From Alteromonadaceae bacterium (GTDB lineage Bacteria; Pseudomonadota; Gammaproteobacteria; Enterobacterales; Alteromonadaceae), in contig JAESPQ010000114.1 in NCBI GenBank assembly GCA_016765535.1, positions 1 through 48,907 on the forward strand: a DNA stretch of 48,907 nucleotides. Reading direction: 5' to 3'. Positions 35,466 through 43,938 of this stretch are shown piece by piece. The translations under genes were made by a program, and so were the position numbers. The notes beneath the pieces were generated by a model. That model ran no database searches, was not told the origin of the DNA, and saw only the letters and a list, made by a program, of their open reading frames with translations. The number at the start of each line of letters is the position of its first letter. The stretch's first letter is position 1.

Positions 35466-35511
35466 TAGTTATTTAATATCATCATGTAATGACAATTAAA
35501 TTAAGGTTGTA

Positions 35512-35706
35512 TTAGTTTTTACTGCTCGCTTCAACATTACTTTTAAGTTCTGTATCCTGAAGCTTTTGATCTTCGCCTAATGCTTTTTTAAAGCCTTTTA
35601 TTGCTCCGCCTAAATCGCCTCCTAAACCACGCAATTTTTTGGTACCAAATAATAAAATTACAATAACGGCAACAATAATCAGTTGCCAAATGCTAATACC
35701 AGCCAT
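35512..35706 (-). CDS. tatA: TatA-family translocase subunit (orphan)
   Basis: This 64-residue protein has a single N-terminal membrane helix ([19 protein letters not shown]), the hinge [20 protein letters not shown], an amphipathic helix and an acidic/polar tail, the standard TatA form. It would build the pore of the twin-arginine export system. The ATG at 35706 has GGAGA 6-7 nt upstream; an upstream in-frame extension to 35793 has no such support. No tatB or tatC follows. Instead it lies 110 bp downstream of a gene whose product has a twin-arginine signal, suggesting a dedicated or auxiliary TatA. Confidence 0.88.
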
Positions 35707-35816
35707 ATATTTCTCCAAAAGTAAGATAAAAATTATAATAAAAATCACCTGCCAAAATAAAAAACTATTAAAGCAGGTGTGTACAAAGTACAAAAAGGTA
35801 CAAGGGAATTAAAAAA

Positions 35817-37277
35817 TCACACCTCTTTAGTGGTTATGCTTAAATTTAAAGTATGACCATTTAACGGTAATACAACATTGTTTGCTGATAACATGCCACT
35901 GTTACAGTTTTGCGCAATATAAACACCACGATAACCAAGGCCTTGCTCACAATTAATTGAATTATGATTTATCATAAAACCAGTACTGTTGTGAATATTA
36001 ATTGCAGCAATAGCGTTTTTATCGCCACCAAAACGGATCATATTATTGTTAATTGATAAGTCAGTTAATAAATAATGCGTTGGAGTAATATTAATGGCTG
36101 CCCCTGATATAGTAGCGGCATTTAGGCTATTTTGGCTGATAATTAATTGTGATTTATTTTCACCTAAAATATCAATATCGCTCTTAAAACCAATCGCATG
36201 TAAACTCTGTTGTTCAATAGTATTTTTGCTAATTATTGCTACAACAGGAACGTACGCGGGAGAAATTTCAATACCTATTTCACCGCCACTGATCTTATTA
36301 TGCGAAATATTAGTATAACCGCCTTGATAAGCTATCCCTTTAGCAAAAGGCTGTTTGGTGATTAATGTGTTATAAGTAATTGTATTATGATGTTCATTCA
36401 TAATATTGCTGTTATTCTCAATTAAAATACCAACACTAGTATAATCAGCAATAAAACAATCTTTGATACAATAAGAAACTTCATTATTAACATAAATACT
36501 CGTTGGAATATTCTTAATACTAAGTTGACTTAATTGCGCGTTATAATTATTTTTTGTTGTATTAGCCGCCAATTTTAAACCAGCCCCTCCTTCTTTATTT
36601 ACATTGTCATTAACGGTTAATAAAAAGTTTTTAAAGGTTCCATCCGTATTATTGTCACTTTTAAAGGCTGTTTTAGCCAAACCTTGATAAGTAATAATAT
36701 TTTTAGCTGAATGATCAGCCGACATTAAGACCGTTTTGTCACCTTGACCAATAATACCGCCAGCCGCAATTGTTAAAGTTAAAAAATGATAATACTTAGC
36801 GCCATAGTGAATAACACGACCAGTTTGATGCGCTTGAGTCATAGCCAGAGTATTAGCATCCGCTAAGTTAGTTTCATTCGCATTATTAACGCCAATGATC
36901 CCAAATTGTTCAGCCCGAATAATGCCATCAGAAAATATTGCTTTCGCCGTTAAGCCTGTTTTGGTTAAATGAATGTAACTACCACCGTCATCACTATGCA
37001 TATTGTTAGCAACTATTTGATAAATATTATCACCTTCATCACCAGCATGGTGATAACCTAAAGTATGTACCGTATCACCAATCTTTAATAACTGATCTGT
37101 TTTCATTTCGTCAATATTAATATGGGTGATCGCATTTTCATTGGTTAGTGCTGGTTTTAGTGTTTTAACCGCATGAGCAGATGAAGATAATGCAGCACCA
37201 CCGAATAAAACGGCTGCCGATGAAGCGCCCATTACCATAAATTTACGACGCGAAGATGTTTTTTCTATATTTTTCAT
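35817..37277 (-). CDS. Tat-exported right-handed beta-helix protein (pectate lyase-like fold)
   Basis: The 486-residue protein starts with a twin-arginine signal, SSRRKFMVMG (R10, R11), a hydrophobic stretch and an AHA cleavage site near residue 36. The mature part has an N-terminal segment with GDTVHTLGYHHAGDEGDNIY, as in pectate-lyase/tail-spike-type proteins. Short beta rungs follow, rich in Asn and Ile (HNTITYN, ISHNKISGGEIGIEI, ISQNSLNAA), diagnostic of a parallel beta-helix. The substrate cannot be assigned; it could be a polysaccharide lyase/epimerase-like or binding protein. It lies between a leaderless M14 peptidase gene (76 bp upstream) and tatA. Confidence 0.82.
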   Translation of the reverse strand: MKNIEKTSSRRKFMVMGASSAAVLFGGAALSSSAHAVKTLKPALTNENAITHINIDEMKTDQLLKIGDTVHTLGYHHAGDEGDNIYQIVANNMHSDDGGSYIHLTKTGLTAKAIFSDGIIRAEQFGIIGVNNANETNLADANTLAMTQAHQTGRVIHYGAKYYHFLTLTIAAGGIIGQGDKTVLMSADHSAKNIITYQGLAKTAFKSDNNTDGTFKNFLLTVNDNVNKEGGAGLKLAANTTKNNYNAQLSQLSIKNIPTSIYVNNEVSYCIKDCFIADYTSVGILIENNSNIMNEHHNTITYNTLITKQPFAKGIAYQGGYTNISHNKISGGEIGIEISPAYVPVVAIISKNTIEQQSLHAIGFKSDIDILGENKSQLIISQNSLNAATISGAAINITPTHYLLTDLSINNNMIRFGGDKNAIAAINIHNSTGFMINHNSINCEQGLGYRGVYIAQNCNSGMLSANNVVLPLNGHTLNLSITTKEV

Positions 37278-37353
37278 AGGATTGATTCCTTCTAAATTTT
37301 ATTTTCATATTTGTTTTATATTAATTTACATCTCTTTTTTACTTTTATTAATA

Positions 37354-39882
37354 TTAAACAATTTGCACTCTATCAATATAAACATCGCTCGTTGCTGATG
37401 CCATAGCGCCTTCAAAAGCAATTTTGAACGTAGCAATATGATTATAAGCAGATAAATCTAACGAGAATGAATGATAGTAATCATCACCATCGGCTGAAGT
37501 TAACGTTTTTATCACGACCCAACCAGCACCATCATCTATTTTAATATTAAATTGATCACTACTCGTAAATGTCGAATTAACTCGGGCAACAAACTCTAAT
37601 TTTTTACCTGAATAACCATTTAAATCAACGGTACGTTCAATACTTTCAATTAGGTTAAATTGTGCAGCAGCACAACCTGAAAATTGTTGCTGTTGATTAA
37701 TCGAGGCACCATTAACTGCCCACGCATAACTAAAGCCATCGCCGCCATTAAAATCGCAGGAATCAAAGTTATCAGTTGCGATAACTTTATCACCTAAAAT
37801 TCTCACTCTGTCGATATACCAATAATCACTAGCTTCATCCATAGCACCTGCAAAAATCACTTTAAAATTAGCACTGCGAGTAAAAGGAGAAAGATCAATA
37901 ACATGTTGATGATAAACTTTATCACTGTGATCTATCGTAATAGTCGCGACAGTTTGAACACCCGTGCCATCATCAATTTTTACATAAGCAACATCACCCA
38001 CCTCAAAATAAACTGAGCGAGAATCAAACACCAATTTAGGATTAATAACCCCCGTTAAATCAACGCTTCTTGTCAGCTTTCCGCCTTGAGTTATTTTTGC
38101 GCAATAACCGCCTTCTAATGGATAACTACTATCAATTGCTGCAGTCGTGCCAGTTATCGTCCAATTGCCTAACCAGCCTTGCCCCCCGGTAAAACTATTC
38201 GTACTAAAGTTGTCATAAGCAATACCGTCTAATGCTAATACGCGAATATGATCTAAATAAAACCAATCAGAAGTGCTGCTCATCGCGCCTTCAAAGGAAA
38301 TTTTAAAATCACTGACATGACTAAAGGCGGATAAATCAATTTCAGTTTCATGATAGTAATAATCATCTGCGCCGTTAACAAAGGTCTTGACCGTAGTCCA
38401 ACCTGAACCATCATTAACTTTAATATAGACTTTATCTGATGTTTCCCAAGAGGCTGCTCGCCATGAAAACTTTAATTTTGCCGCCATACGTCCACTTAAA
38501 TTAACACTACGCTCAATGCGACCTTTATTTAATAAACGTACTGTATGATCACCATTGTGTACATATTTTTTCGTCAGCATTTCGACATCGCCAGAGAGTA
38601 ACCAGTCACTTGCCCAGCCACGAGCTTTATCTTTATTAGTGTAATCACCAGAGATCCAATCTTCACTCGCAACAGGATCATAACCAAAGACATCTTCTTT
38701 TGATAAATCGCGTGTTGAAGCAACTAGTTCTAAAATACCATTTGCCCACTCCATAATTAATTGATCGGCTTCTGACCAAGCTGGTCGTTGACCAACCGCA
38801 GACATTTCAAAGGTATATTGATAAACTTTATGTGGATGTTCAAACCACTGCTCAGCTTTAACGGTGCGCGACCTTGATGTTAAAGGGTTATCGGTATGAT
38901 TAAAATACATTTCATAGGTACTAATACCGCTACCATAAGGATAACCAGGAGTAGGCCCTGGCGTTAATCCAGCTTGATCTAGCACGGTAGAACGGTGATC
39001 ATAAATTGCAGCTCTAACCCGCTGTGCCATATAATTGAAATAACCTGAACGTTGTAATGTTGTACCACCTAAAATTTCATCGGGGCTTTGGGTTTTACCA
39101 TTGGCAGAATCTAATTGGGGGATTTCGCCATCTGGGGCTACTGGCCAAAAAATCACATTACCAGCACTATGACAAACGGCACTCACCCAAATTTTAGGGT
39201 ATTGCTTAAACACCCAACTAATATTCATTGCTTCGGGTTCTGAATGTGAACCGATACCGTGATAGGCCTCATTTGAACAAGTGTTTGACGAACTACCGCC
39301 GCCAAAACCCACTGAGTAATTACGATTAATATCAACAGTACAAGTGCTATCGGTACTATAATGCCAAATTTCAGGAGCGCCACCTTTTACATGGCGATTT
39401 TTTCTAAAATTTGCCAAATCATGAAATGAATACATGCTGCCATCGGGATTACAGTCGGGCAAATAAAAAATATCTACTTCATCAAGTAGTTGAGTGATAT
39501 AAGCATCATTGCCATAATTTTGTAAAATACGATACATCGCTTCAACTAACGCATGTTTTGGGATCCACTCTCTTGAATGTGGTGAGCCATAAACAAATAC
39601 CCCATGGCGAGCACTATCTTTAGCACCATGAAGTCGATAAAGCTTCAATTCTGCTCTATTCGCATCAATAGGCTGACCATCCATTGCCGTAGTAACTGCA
39701 CCGTTATATCCGTATGTTTTATTCGGTAAATTAATCGTTTCAACTAATTCAGGGTGGGCATCAATAAAGCCTTGTACAATACGACTTATTGATTGCGCAT
39801 CATGATATAAGCCTTTGCTACCATTAAAATAATGATTTAACGTCGGCGGTGTTGCTGGGTTAGTATGTTTATATACGTACAT
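37354..39882 (-). CDS. M14-family zinc carboxypeptidase with three C-terminal beta-sandwich repeats
   Basis: The catalytic domain covers ~residues 20-390. Zinc ligands are H102 and E105 in PHSREW and H238 in VCHSAGN. Substrate-binding N186/R187 lie in DINRNY, and the catalytic Glu (~E359) in YQYTFEMSAVG. The rest holds three related ~140-residue MAM/jelly-roll-like repeats, each with a KIDDGxGWxxxKT-type strand and ending in a YIDRVRI-like motif, probably for binding polymer or surface. The ATG at 39882 is preferred (842 residues, GAGG 10-11 nt upstream) over an in-frame start at 39903. No signal peptide is visible at either start, odd for an enzyme of this architecture. It is followed by the Tat substrate and tatA genes. 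Confidence 0.88.
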   Translation of the reverse strand: MYVYKHTNPATPPTLNHYFNGSKGLYHDAQSISRIVQGFIDAHPELVETINLPNKTYGYNGAVTTAMDGQPIDANRAELKLYRLHGAKDSARHGVFVYGSPHSREWIPKHALVEAMYRILQNYGNDAYITQLLDEVDIFYLPDCNPDGSMYSFHDLANFRKNRHVKGGAPEIWHYSTDSTCTVDINRNYSVGFGGGSSSNTCSNEAYHGIGSHSEPEAMNISWVFKQYPKIWVSAVCHSAGNVIFWPVAPDGEIPQLDSANGKTQSPDEILGGTTLQRSGYFNYMAQRVRAAIYDHRSTVLDQAGLTPGPTPGYPYGSGISTYEMYFNHTDNPLTSRSRTVKAEQWFEHPHKVYQYTFEMSAVGQRPAWSEADQLIMEWANGILELVASTRDLSKEDVFGYDPVASEDWISGDYTNKDKARGWASDWLLSGDVEMLTKKYVHNGDHTVRLLNKGRIERSVNLSGRMAAKLKFSWRAASWETSDKVYIKVNDGSGWTTVKTFVNGADDYYYHETEIDLSAFSHVSDFKISFEGAMSSTSDWFYLDHIRVLALDGIAYDNFSTNSFTGGQGWLGNWTITGTTAAIDSSYPLEGGYCAKITQGGKLTRSVDLTGVINPKLVFDSRSVYFEVGDVAYVKIDDGTGVQTVATITIDHSDKVYHQHVIDLSPFTRSANFKVIFAGAMDEASDYWYIDRVRILGDKVIATDNFDSCDFNGGDGFSYAWAVNGASINQQQQFSGCAAAQFNLIESIERTVDLNGYSGKKLEFVARVNSTFTSSDQFNIKIDDGAGWVVIKTLTSADGDDYYHSFSLDLSAYNHIATFKIAFEGAMASATSDVYIDRVQIV

Positions 39883-40053
39883 ATAGTTTACTTCCTCTAT
39901 CATTGTTAACGATAAATGTTTGGGGCGATAAAATTATATCTATTTAATTTACATTCCCTGAAGTTCTAAGCCCCTGTTTATTTTTAAGTTATATTTTATT
40001 ATTTTTGTTATAACTGATTTTGCTCAAGATAAAACATTGAACATTTACTATAC

Positions 40054-40069
40054 AGCGAATAGTATGCCA
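40054..40069 (-). promoter_or_regulatory. Sigma54-like promoter of the carboxypeptidase-tatA operon
   Basis: On the minus strand TGGCATACTATTCGCT has GG-N10-GC with TGGCA and TCGCT, 172 bp upstream of the carboxypeptidase ATG. It is the only structured signal noticed in the AT-rich 381-bp gap 39883-40263. Confidence 0.5.
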
Positions 40070-40263
40070 ATCACTTTGAATTATTTATACCTTTGATATT
40101 TAACAAAAAAAAATAAAACAAAATTTAAATACCTCCCTAAACAAGCAAATAACTACTCACTCACATCGCCACTTAGGAAATATACTTCTCAAGAAAAGCA
40201 ATTAAAAAGCTAACTAAAACGAAGCAAACTGTTTTTGCATTGAAAAATTTATTATTCAATGAC

Positions 40264-41025
40264 TCAAAACCTATTTAGATAAAAATAAGATTTCATCACC
40301 TTTTTATAAGCTTGCCTCATTTTAGTTACGATACGTTTATCAGTATCTAAGCTAAAAGCCAAATAGAGAGAAGTAGATGTTTGCTCTAAACGATACACTG
40401 GCACAATTTCTCGACAATTCAACATTAAATGTAAGCAAGTAAGCTGAAACGTGGGGAAATCGGTAGGAAACAAATCAATTCTCCCTAATTTTAACATTTT
40501 AACGGTTTGTTCAGGGCTCGTTAATAAGTGTAGTGACTTAAAACCTTCAGTTAATAAGTAGTGATGATTGGCACTCTTTCGAATAGTGCCAATATCCAAG
40601 TGTTTTAATGACTGAATAGAAACTGGCGGTGTAAATTTTGCAGAATTTAAGGCGACTAAATAGTAGTTTAGTTGGGTTAAATAACCTACCCAATGAAAAT
40701 CATGTTCTCGCTCAGCGGTTCTCGCAATAGAATAGATAAGCGTGTTTGATTTGGTTTTTGCGTAGTGATAAGCACGAGCCCAAGGTAAAATATGTTGCCG
40801 GTATTTAAAACCTGCTTCTTCCAAGACACGCTTTACCAATTCAGATGCGGGTCCTTTTATCGTCGCGTTCTCAAGATATTGATAGGGATATGCATCTTCA
40901 GTGACAACATTAATAATAACATTATCAAAATCATTTTTTTCATCAGCATTACAAACTTGCCCGCAACACAAACAAATTATAAAAAAATAAAGTAAATTAT
41001 TACTCATCAATAAATTCAATCGCAT
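40264..41025 (-). CDS. Periplasmic solute-binding-like protein (SBP family 3 type)
   Basis: The 253-residue product has an N-terminal signal peptide (LLYFFIICLCCGQVCNA). A two-lobed amino-acid-binding-like fold follows, with VVTEDAYPYQYLENATIKGP, SELVKRVLEEAGFKYRQHIL, PWARAYHYAK and LGRIDLFPTD. These are typical of family 3 periplasmic proteins that lack a cognate ABC transporter in marine gammaproteobacteria. No permease or ATPase gene is adjacent, so it may be an orphan sensor or binding protein. The ATG at 41025 is chosen because AAGGAGAAGG lies before it; an ATG at 41043 would place that site inside the coding region. Confidence 0.8.
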   Translation of the reverse strand: MRLNLLMSNNLLYFFIICLCCGQVCNADEKNDFDNVIINVVTEDAYPYQYLENATIKGPASELVKRVLEEAGFKYRQHILPWARAYHYAKTKSNTLIYSIARTAEREHDFHWVGYLTQLNYYLVALNSAKFTPPVSIQSLKHLDIGTIRKSANHHYLLTEGFKSLHLLTSPEQTVKMLKLGRIDLFPTDFPTFQLTCLHLMLNCREIVPVYRLEQTSTSLYLAFSLDTDKRIVTKMRQAYKKVMKSYFYLNRF

Positions 41026-41059
41026 CGATACCTTCTCCTTCATAAAAATAAAAATAAAA

Positions 41060-41089
41060 AGGCAGTTTACCCGCTAAAGTAAACTGCTT
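41060..41089 (-). terminator. Terminator after the TonB receptor gene
   Basis: Arms AGGCAGTTTAC / GTAAACTGCTT with an 8-nt loop are followed on the minus strand by a T-rich tract. It lies ~50 bp past the receptor stop and just upstream of the solute-binding gene. Confidence 0.75.
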
Positions 41090-41141
41090 TTGAATTAATC
41101 GCATAAAGCGAAGTTTTACAGGGAAGTTGTCAATAATAAGT

Positions 41142-43682
41142 TTAAAAATTAATACTTACACGACCATAAATAAAGCGTCCATCAGTACTATAAGGCGAGA
41201 ATGATGAGAACGGAATGATACGGTTAAAAGTGCTAATACGACGACTGCCATCGTCATTAATAAATTGATCTGCCGCTTTTGGATAAGCATCAAATAAATT
41301 ATTGGCGCCAATGCTTAACTTAATATTGTCTGTTAATTGATAGCTAACATCTAAATCAGCAATCCATTTAGCAGCAAATGTTTCTACATAACCTAGTTTA
41401 GATTTATCACTACTATATTGAGCATCAGACCATTCACCAAAGCGATTTGCACGTAAACTTACATTTAATTTATCGAGACTCCATGTTGCTGCTAAGTTTA
41501 GTTTAGAGTCTGGTGTTCCTTTTTCAAAACGATTAATTTCACGGGCGCTAAAAGTTATATAGTTATCGCCTAACGCATCTAATTCGGGAGGATTAGCTTT
41601 TAAATTAGTGACCTCGGTATCGTTAAGGTTAAGCGCAGCACTTAAACGTAAACTACCCATGTTGTTTAAATCTTGATCATAAGTGGCAACAATATCAATA
41701 CCTTGAGTTGTAGTATCAATAGCATTGGTAAAGTAGGTTGCACCACTTACTGCATTAACACCCGCATTTTCTAAAATAGCCGTCACCGCTGAACCGCTAA
41801 TATTTTCAGATAATACAATACGGTCATCAATGGTGATTTTATAAGCATCAACAGTAAAGTTGAAATTGTTAATTTCATAAATAAAACCAAAAGTCATATT
41901 AATAGATTCTTCTGGTGTTAATTGCTTAGCACCTAATGCTTGTGCCACATCGCTTGCCACTGGAAACAGACCTTTTTCAACAGGAAGGTCGTTAACAAAT
42001 ACGGTAGAAACGGTAGTGTATGATGTTTGTGCTAAAGAAGGCGCTCTAAAACCTGAGCTGATAGCACCACGAAAGGCAAAGTGTTCATTAACTTCTAATC
42101 GTGCTGCAGCCTTAGCCGTGAAGTTTGTGCCAAAATCACTATAATCTTCATAACGAGCAGCAAAAGTAGTGTTTAAGTTGTCCGTTAAATCAGTATCTAA
42201 CTCAGCAAACAAACTAAGGTTATGACGACTTTCATCAGCACTACTTGGCAAACCTGGGAAACCTTGTGCGCCACCATTAATATATGAGGCTTCCTCACCT
42301 TGAGTTATTTTATAGTTTTCGCTGCGATATTCTGCGCCAACAGCAACAAATACATCATCATACAAACCAAAATCAAGTGAACTGTCAGTGGTGTAGTTTA
42401 AAATAGTTTGGCTATAAACAAGGGCGCCATTATCAAATTTTGTTGGCGTCGCATTGCCTAATGACGCATTGGCACTATTTTTAACCCCTAAACCAAAATC
42501 ATTTTTACCATAATCTACGCTTGCATCCCAATTCCAATCGCCCATTTCTCCCATTATACCAAAAATAAAAGACAAGTCAGTTACATCACTAATAATATGC
42601 GGTAAAAAACCATCTGGATATATTTCAGATGCAATACCTCGTTTTGGTTGACGATAAAATGCGGCTGAATCACCATCACGTAGGCCGTAAGTACCAAAAG
42701 AGTATAAGTCGGTAGTATCATTCAAGCTATAACCAAGATTATACACAAAGGTAGTATCTTGAATATCGGCACGACCTACACGAAAGTTATTTGCATGATC
42801 AAAAGTTAGCTCTTTGGGATCTAAATTACCATTATCATCTAAAGCATAGACACGACGACCTTCATAACCATTACGAGAAGTAGGTGCGCGATCACGCGAT
42901 TCAAATGATAAATTTAAAAAGCCATCTTCACCTAAGGCAAAACCAATATTACCCGCAATAGTCGTTGTTTCACCATCGCTGCGCGTTATATCTCCACCTT
43001 CATTAAATATTAACTCATTGTTAATTATTTCTTTACTCTTTAGCTGCTTAACACCATCAACGGTAGTGTTGTATTGACCATAAGTGACATCAAAACTGCC
43101 ACCTTCGCTACCATCTTTTAAAATGATATTAATCACCCCAGCTATCGCATCAGAGCCGTATTGTGCTGCAGCACCGTCGCGTAAAACTTGAATGCTTTTA
43201 ATCGCCGATGTTGGGATCATATTTAAGTCAACTGCCGTTGAACCACGACCAACACTACCACCTAAATTAAGTAGCGCCCCACTATGGCGACGTTTGCCAT
43301 TAATTAATACTAAGGTATGATCAGGTGCTAAACCACGTAAAGTCGCGGGAGCAGAATGATCTGTACCATCATTAAGGGTTGCTTTAGGATAATTAAAGCT
43401 TGGTAAAAGGTTTGATAAAACTTGACTCACTTCAAGTTGACCTGTGGCATTCATATCTTCAACACTGATCACATCAATAGGAGAAGTACTTTCAGCAACA
43501 GTACGATCATTACGGCGAGTACCTGTAACTATAATACGTTCAACACTTTCTTCATTTTTAACTTTTGCTTCTTCAGCTTTAACCATCATCGATGGTGCTG
43601 CAAATAATGACATGGCTATCGCTAAAGCAACGGGCTTAGCGATAAAATTTTGATTAATACGACAACGAGAGTTTAACAACAT
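41142..43682 (-). CDS. TonB-dependent outer-membrane receptor
   Basis: This is a TonB-dependent transporter of 846 residues. It has a signal peptide (ALAIAMSLFAAPSMMVKA). A TonB-box-like segment (ESVERIIVTGTRR) leads into the plug domain (~55-190), with TLRGLAPDHTLVLINGKRRH and AAQYGSDAIAGVINIILKDG. A 22-strand barrel ends in aromatic RVSINF. The substrate is unknown. This plug type is common among receptors of marine Alteromonadales, and the neighbours (solute-binding protein, peptidase, amino-acid regulators) hint at peptides or amino acids; that is inference. The ATG at 43682 has AAGG upstream. A sigma54-like site lies ~108 bp upstream. Confidence 0.93.
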   Translation of the reverse strand: MLLNSRCRINQNFIAKPVALAIAMSLFAAPSMMVKAEEAKVKNEESVERIIVTGTRRNDRTVAESTSPIDVISVEDMNATGQLEVSQVLSNLLPSFNYPKATLNDGTDHSAPATLRGLAPDHTLVLINGKRRHSGALLNLGGSVGRGSTAVDLNMIPTSAIKSIQVLRDGAAAQYGSDAIAGVINIILKDGSEGGSFDVTYGQYNTTVDGVKQLKSKEIINNELIFNEGGDITRSDGETTTIAGNIGFALGEDGFLNLSFESRDRAPTSRNGYEGRRVYALDDNGNLDPKELTFDHANNFRVGRADIQDTTFVYNLGYSLNDTTDLYSFGTYGLRDGDSAAFYRQPKRGIASEIYPDGFLPHIISDVTDLSFIFGIMGEMGDWNWDASVDYGKNDFGLGVKNSANASLGNATPTKFDNGALVYSQTILNYTTDSSLDFGLYDDVFVAVGAEYRSENYKITQGEEASYINGGAQGFPGLPSSADESRHNLSLFAELDTDLTDNLNTTFAARYEDYSDFGTNFTAKAAARLEVNEHFAFRGAISSGFRAPSLAQTSYTTVSTVFVNDLPVEKGLFPVASDVAQALGAKQLTPEESINMTFGFIYEINNFNFTVDAYKITIDDRIVLSENISGSAVTAILENAGVNAVSGATYFTNAIDTTTQGIDIVATYDQDLNNMGSLRLSAALNLNDTEVTNLKANPPELDALGDNYITFSAREINRFEKGTPDSKLNLAATWSLDKLNVSLRANRFGEWSDAQYSSDKSKLGYVETFAAKWIADLDVSYQLTDNIKLSIGANNLFDAYPKAADQFINDDGSRRISTFNRIIPFSSFSPYSTDGRFIYGRVSINF

Positions 43683-43779
43683 GTTTGTTAGCCTTTTATA
43701 ATAATATATTGGTTTTTTATTTGAATTTAATTTATATAGTTTTTAACTTCGACTATCTGTACTAAAAAACAAGATAGCG

Positions 43780-43806
43780 TATTGGCTATAGCGAAGGCTA
43801 TGCCAA
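43780..43806 (-). promoter_or_regulatory. Sigma54-like promoter overlapping an inverted repeat, TonB receptor gene
   Basis: On the minus strand TGGCATAGCCTTCGCT (43805-43790) has GG-N10-GC and shares TGGCATA...TTCGCT with the carboxypeptidase candidate. The site also forms one arm of an imperfect palindrome (GGCATAGC / GCTATAGCC). It might therefore instead be a REP-like repeat. Confidence 0.4.
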
Positions 43807-43938
43807 CATAGTAACCATATGATATAGTTACTATTTATTTGTTTTATTGATTTTAAAAAGACAATGATGAGTAATATGATGCTTATATTGTTTAGCTTGT
43901 AGAGAAGATTCATACCTAGTTTTTATAGTTATAGGAAA

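Follow-up and report, generated by a model that had tools for sequence, protein, structure and literature searches.

A carboxypeptidase of family M14 with no visible signal peptide, encoded beside a Tat-signal protein and an extra TatA: possible hitchhiker export in an Alteromonadaceae genome

Three consecutive minus-strand genes in an Alteromonadaceae genome encode a zinc carboxypeptidase of the M14 family, a 486-aa protein with a twin-arginine signal and a lone, extra TatA. An export-type carboxypeptidase that lacks its own signal and sits beside a TatA and a Tat substrate is an unusual combination. The best single reading, a tentative one that falls short of an even chance, is that the peptidase leaves by Tat hitchhiking on the 486-aa protein. 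What is new here is the absence of the surrounding gene block from a sister genome, the possession by the peptidase of cysteines on both sides of its D-x-NRN motif, as in export-type relatives, and the recurrence in the family of extra tatA genes beside Tat substrates. The window (the whole stretch of 48,907 nts analysed) is contig C114 of a 3.6 Mb assembly in 128 contigs, 85.8% complete and with 4.1% contamination. Within it the order and coordinates of the three genes are as the first-pass annotation had them.

The peptidase gene (37354..39882, minus strand) gives 842 aa from ATG 39882. An earlier ATG at 39903 is in frame, and its use would extend the ORF to 37354-39903 and the product to 849 aa. 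Read closely, the seven codons so added (39883..39903, minus strand) hold the likely ribosome-binding site for the shorter form: GAGGAAG, 8 nts upstream of ATG 39882, is a good one, which makes 39882, the end coordinate originally proposed, the likelier start. Signal peptides were assessed through hydropathy, a simple signal-start rule and inspection by eye. Neither start yields a visible signal: hydropathy averaged over 12 residues reaches at most 0.73 close to the N-terminus. Upstream of ATG 39903 the peptidase frame is open for 10 codons only, and in the preceding 360 bp the hydrophobic runs, in any of the three frames, meet a stop codon before they reach that ATG. The original description of an M14 peptidase without a visible signal peptide is therefore borne out for both starts, by hydropathy, the rule and the upstream frames.

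Membership of the M14 family is clear from Pfam (Peptidase_M14, 6.5e-34, 118.3 bits against a cut-off of 21.6). The catalytic domain runs to about residue 402, and behind it come three repeats, each a beta-sandwich of about 140 aa, in agreement with the C-terminal repeats first described. H109, E112, R194, H245 and E366 are invariant across 16 aligned sequences; we take them to be the zinc ligands and catalytic residues of M14 enzymes (HxxE ... H, NR and the catalytic Glu), and by this alignment the catalytic residues are intact. The best sequence relative with a solved structure is CPA2 (2e-21). The structure model of the peptidase has a mean pLDDT of 55.5 and a clear catalytic fold, and it aligns with procarboxypeptidase A4 (2boa_A) over 267 residues with Z 24.5 and rmsd 3.4. 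Foldseek searches with the repeats returned reelin entries (5b4x_C, E 4.2e-14, TM 0.13) together with other proteins, and the repeats are taken only as a presumptive ‘extracellular-type beta-sandwich’. Five other family proteins (L189, L190, L193, L194 and L195) also have the C-terminal repeat of the peptidase, placed there close after what the eye recognises as a Sec-type signal. The peptidase frame begins a short way ahead of the catalytic domain, with neither a visible signal nor a pro-region, and for that reason the protein is classed as M14 only and not as a secreted CPA/CPB pro-carboxypeptidase.

Domain-level matches to the peptidase occur in 66 of 395 family genomes, counting its own, and among the matches listed none from another genome spans most of the protein. 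In 369 genomes of the class, a threshold of 1e-15 leaves its own genome as the single hit. A single-protein scan of a contig collection from 84,980 species gave no relatives. A scan of the same collection with a two-sequence alignment gave 451, and the 80 of the 451 that were kept are 27-33% identical and cover query residues 15 to 424 only. The nearest relatives found, from Nonomuraea and other actinobacteria, are about 30% identical and extend further at the N-terminal end, in Nonomuraea by approximately 215 residues with a Sec-type signal; the peptidase simply begins at its catalytic domain. Searching plasmids with the peptidase gave 17 records of distant M14 proteins, searching phages gave none, and viral contigs held no relative either of the peptidase or of the 486-aa protein.

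The cysteines around the D-x-NRN motif were compared in two sets of M14 proteins. The export-type set was drawn from 88 loci (the 80 kept relatives and 8 from the family) and gave 87 rows with 85 distinct cores, L196 having yielded no row and been left out; L034 and L197 are one gene. The leaderless set has 28 rows, 27 from family loci and one from a Caballeronia protein, with 26 distinct cores. Cysteines flank D-x-NRN on both sides in all 87 export-type rows, a count to be read with the caution that these rows are mostly actinobacterial, mutually related and so not independent, and a downstream cysteine is present in 0 of the 28 leaderless rows. The upstream cysteine does not discriminate, since 27 of the 28 leaderless rows also show one no more than 45 residues from the motif. 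The spacing between it and the motif is 16-17 residues for most export-type rows and 3 for the peptidase. C188 and C209 of the peptidase flank the motif and align with cysteines of CPA2. By the simple rule a signal-like start is present in 86 of 87 export-type rows as against none of 28 leaderless ones, and the single export-type row that the rule misses, L068, is signal-bearing to the eye. The possession of both cysteines without a signal is, apart from L068 by the rule, unique to the peptidase in this comparison. On the best explanation it would be an export-type enzyme, as judged by the cysteines of secreted carboxypeptidases and the three extracellular-type repeats. It resembles secreted M14 enzymes (CPA/CPB and the actinobacterial proteins) in catalytic residues, cysteines and fold, and differs from them in having no signal or pro-region and in carrying the three C-terminal beta-sandwich repeats.

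Some of the leaderless M14 genes stand in recognisable settings of their own. In three family genomes, at L038, L040 and L041 (e.g. L040:4558-10961), the same gene pair is followed by a gene for a leaderless M14 protein of about 890 aa, with an M20-like peptidase gene near. In L040 the pair consists of two RimK-like ATP-grasp genes by Pfam, and such a cluster looks like a peptide-tailing or amino-acid-ligase operon. On plasmid p1 of Caballeronia insecticola (L037:989-6886) the gene for a leaderless M14-VWA protein (VWA by Pfam) is divergent from a 706-aa ORF, in which a zinc-protease-like motif, HEIGHAMGLVH, can be seen by eye.

The putative carrier is the 486-aa product of the ORF at 35817..37277 (minus strand), in which sequence reading points to a clear twin-arginine signal (SRRKF ... 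AHA) and a probable right-handed beta-helix. The signal, KTSSRRKFMVMGASSAAVLFGGAALSSSAHA, fits the Tat consensus. Searches of NCBIfam, PHROGs and PDB sequences matched nothing to this protein, and Pfam gave no match above cut-off. Between residues 43 and 129 it contains stretches that share 45-51% identity with the tail spikes or tail fibres of three phages, a module that we take to occur at the N-terminus of pectate-lyase-like beta-helices. Of the earlier description as a beta-helix protein with a Tat signal, then, the signal stands, and the beta-helix, unbacked by a Pfam or NCBIfam match or by a usable fold, is probable from the tail-spike and tail-fibre resemblance and the general appearance of the sequence. 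(A structure model with pLDDT 31.7 was unusable and was set aside.) No relatives were found in 3 other genomes of the genus, 394 others of the family and 311 others of the class (the samples of 4, 395 and 312 each include the genome itself and partly overlap), and a plasmid search gave none.

The third gene (35512..35706, minus strand), with GGAG before its ATG, encodes a 64-aa protein that matches TatA_B_E (6e-14) and TIGR01411 (68.5 bits against a cut-off of 53.9). PMC5777986 assigns Lys8 to TatE-type proteins and Gln8 or His8 to TatA, and PMC4148689 names Gln8 and Phe39 as essential in E. coli TatA. The extra protein has Gln8 and Phe39 and no Lys8, and these residues together with the family score identify it, at the level of sequence, as a full-length TatA of the TatA type and not the TatE type, as befits the lone TatA first annotated beside the Tat-signal gene. 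A complete host tatABC, which the first-pass annotation wanted confirmed, is on contig C1 of the same genome, so that the extra TatA would be a supplement. In C. jejuni two TatA paralogues with differing substrate dependence are described (PMC4148689). A fresh duplication of the host tatA is not favoured as the source of the extra copy: over the first 52 residues host TatA shares 47 with the TatA of the sister genome and 37 with the extra TatA.

The three genes share a strand and are separated by gaps of 76 and 110 bp, in which a simple terminator scan found no terminator-like site. As to the single operon first proposed, strand and spacing agree with it, and co-transcription of the peptidase gene, the Tat-signal gene and tatA is likely from just these features. 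The 110-bp gap does, however, hold a stable intercistronic hairpin before tatA with a U-rich tail (35707..35816, minus strand; z -3.34, with 0 of 200 shuffles as stable). It is of long-loop type, such as the loop limit of the simple scan would miss, and is possibly an attenuator or processing site that sets the level of TatA. A promoter scan gave 40 sites against 38.1 expected and is given no weight.

Upstream is a gene for an SBP_bac_3-like binding protein (40264..41043, minus strand; 3.7e-06, 27.2 bits against a cut-off of 26.4), preceded by that for a TonB-dependent receptor identified by Pfam (41142..43682, minus strand), after which there is a terminator-like hairpin at 41087-41062. With the receptor gene first, these five genes make up a block of 8473 bp (35466..43938) between glutaminase and tyrR-like genes. 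In the sister genome G003 the order is glutaminase, 48 bp, tyrR-like gene and methionine gamma-lyase, with the 48 bp in place of the block, and six flanking genes are 80-98% identical to those of the window; given these matching flanks, the block is not stray assembly contamination. In this comparison with one sister, it may have been either gained in the present genome or lost in G003. In G001 (78% complete) glutaminase adjoins a different gene on that side, in G002 there is no glutaminase match, and G001, G002 and G003 have one match each to the extra TatA. The ends of the block have only short repeats at chance level, the best of 12 bases. In 14 TonB-receptor loci searched by tblastn at 1e-3, no match to the peptidase, the Tat-signal protein or the extra TatA was found.

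The wider family offers a context for the extra TatA. It was used to search 196 family genomes, and 32 besides its own had more than one match. Three of these (G111, G156 and G191), in which the second match was a neighbouring TatB-like gene, were left out, and 32 loci were taken from the other 29; the best match of most genomes was assumed, unseen, to be the ordinary copy. One locus, L203, proved to be an ordinary tatABC and its omission leaves 31 extra tatA loci. A gene with an RR signal lies within about three genes at 25 of the 31 (a raw count). Fifteen have a PhoX-like gene with tatC beside tatA, by position and sequence and, for four (L207, L218, L220 and L227), by Pfam; eight have a multicopper-oxidase-like gene with a lone tatA (by Pfam for one, L210); the remaining RR-signal loci are L202 and L212. 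Four extra tatA genes (L205, L206, L208 and L209) are in nos-type clusters, L206 having NosZ domains by Pfam, and L204 and L223 have no Tat substrate in view. Service of a TatA to a neighbouring Tat substrate would on these gene neighbourhoods be ordinary in the family, and the earlier suggestion that TatA here helps the adjacent substrate is supported as an arrangement.

(The eight oxidase loci, L210, L211, L213-L217 and L219, are near-alike clusters of lone tatA and Tat-signal multicopper oxidase from eight genomes in three genera. Their recurrence suggests a mobile copper-resistance unit.)

The nearest parallel is L202 (G176:C1:28000-42000), which has a TonB receptor, three tandem Tat-signal beta-helix proteins, two tatA genes and tatC. 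Its three beta-helix proteins all match Pfam Beta_helix above cut-off, with Pfam TAT_signal below its cut-off, and it would seem to be a Tat locus devoted to beta-helix proteins. The clustering of TonB receptor, Tat-signal protein (beta-helix there, probable beta-helix here) and extra tatA is shared with the present block; unlike that block, L202 has tatC and no M14 gene was seen in it, and its beta-helix proteins have no significant similarity to the 486-aa protein (best E 0.31). The block is likewise comparable to the PhoX, multicopper oxidase and nos loci in having additional tatA (or tatABC there) beside an RR-signal gene. It differs in that the PhoX loci also have tatC and that phosphatases or metal enzymes stand there in place of the beta-helix-type protein. 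At L212 an extra tatA accompanies genes for a Tat-signal isomerase, for a signal-less GMC oxidoreductase and for gluconate-dehydrogenase subunit 3, in which the eye recognises an RR signal. The last two would be the type of pair in which redox-enzyme hitchhiking is expected, and the literature searched gave no paper joining gluconate 2-dehydrogenase with twin-arginine hitchhiking.

Encoding of a Tat-signal partner together with a signal-less one, as in Tat hitchhiking, is what the three genes present. On the hitchhiking reading, the five genes would be an export-and-scavenging block, gained or lost as one unit; the 486-aa beta-helix-type protein would be exported folded via the Tat pathway, with the extra TatA supplementing host TatABC for this substrate, and the signal-less peptidase would cross the inner membrane as its folded partner. 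Outside the cytoplasm the peptidase would digest peptides, and the TonB receptor and binding protein would deal with its products. We infer co-transcription, complex formation, hitchhiking, the service of this TatA to this substrate and the scavenging role. Precedent comes from HybOC and PaoABC of E. coli, whose signal-less subunits are shown to be co-exported (PMC4273604; also PMC10924467). The similarity is in the encoding of a signal-less protein beside a twin-arginine partner; the difference is that those are redox cofactor enzymes in known complexes (PMC4273604), and here a peptidase would pair with a beta-helix-type protein. No paper joining zinc carboxypeptidase or peptidase M14 with Tat hitchhiking was found in the literature searched. 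Hitchhiking is favoured by the HybOC and PaoABC precedent, by the export-type cysteines of a peptidase that has no signal, which it reconciles most simply, by the occurrence of the peptidase repeats behind Sec-type signals elsewhere, by the frequency with which extra tatA adjoins RR-signal genes and by the joint absence of the three genes from G003. Against it, the set is known from one genome among those sampled, the proven Tat hitchhikers known to us are cofactor enzymes with no peptidase among them, the upstream cysteine fails to tell the two M14 sets apart, leaderless M14 proteins with long C-terminal parts, apparently cytoplasmic, occur in the family, and the Tat substrate by itself accounts for a neighbouring extra TatA. 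Moreover, a disulfide protein must pass Tat before its bond forms, or form the bond in the cytoplasm.

It is somewhat unlikely, though it deserves serious consideration, that the peptidase stays in the cytoplasm and merely shares a transcript with the Tat substrate and TatA. Leaderless M14 proteins are normal in the family (the 27 loci without a signal-like start), those of L038, L040 and L041 are preceded by a similar gene pair with an M20 peptidase near, and the M14-VWA protein of Caballeronia is leaderless too; but the downstream cysteine of the peptidase is in none of the 28 leaderless rows, and its repeats follow Sec-type signals in other family proteins. Descent from a secreted enzyme whose signal region was lost, leaving a protein now mislocalised or decaying, would suit the longer N-termini of the nearest relatives, with the signal-bearing extension of about 215 residues in Nonomuraea. 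We consider this improbable in view of a frame open over 849 codons, intact catalytic residues and the good ribosome-binding site before ATG 39882. Equally poor prospects attach to export by a signal-free route unrelated to Tat, such as type I secretion, vesicles or lysis. Large repeat-bearing exoenzymes without an N-terminal signal do use type I secretion in other bacteria, but neither an RTX-type repeat nor a C-terminal sorting domain was found in the peptidase by Pfam, NCBIfam or eye, and Pfam identified no exporter among the five genes of the block.

In its fullest form Tat hitchhiking would make the locus a ‘bring your own exporter’ block: a hydrolase free of redox cofactor would travel as passenger of a Tat-exported beta-helix protein, and the block's own TatA would widen the path. 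We are doubtful of so complete a picture. If hitchhiking is true, there are exported hydrolases that signal-peptide predictors overlook as a class, and looking for an extra tatA would be a practical way to find Tat substrates with their passengers. The adjacency of most inspected extra tatA loci in the family to Tat substrates holds even if the peptidase is cytoplasmic, and it makes the dedication of a TatA to a particular substrate testable.
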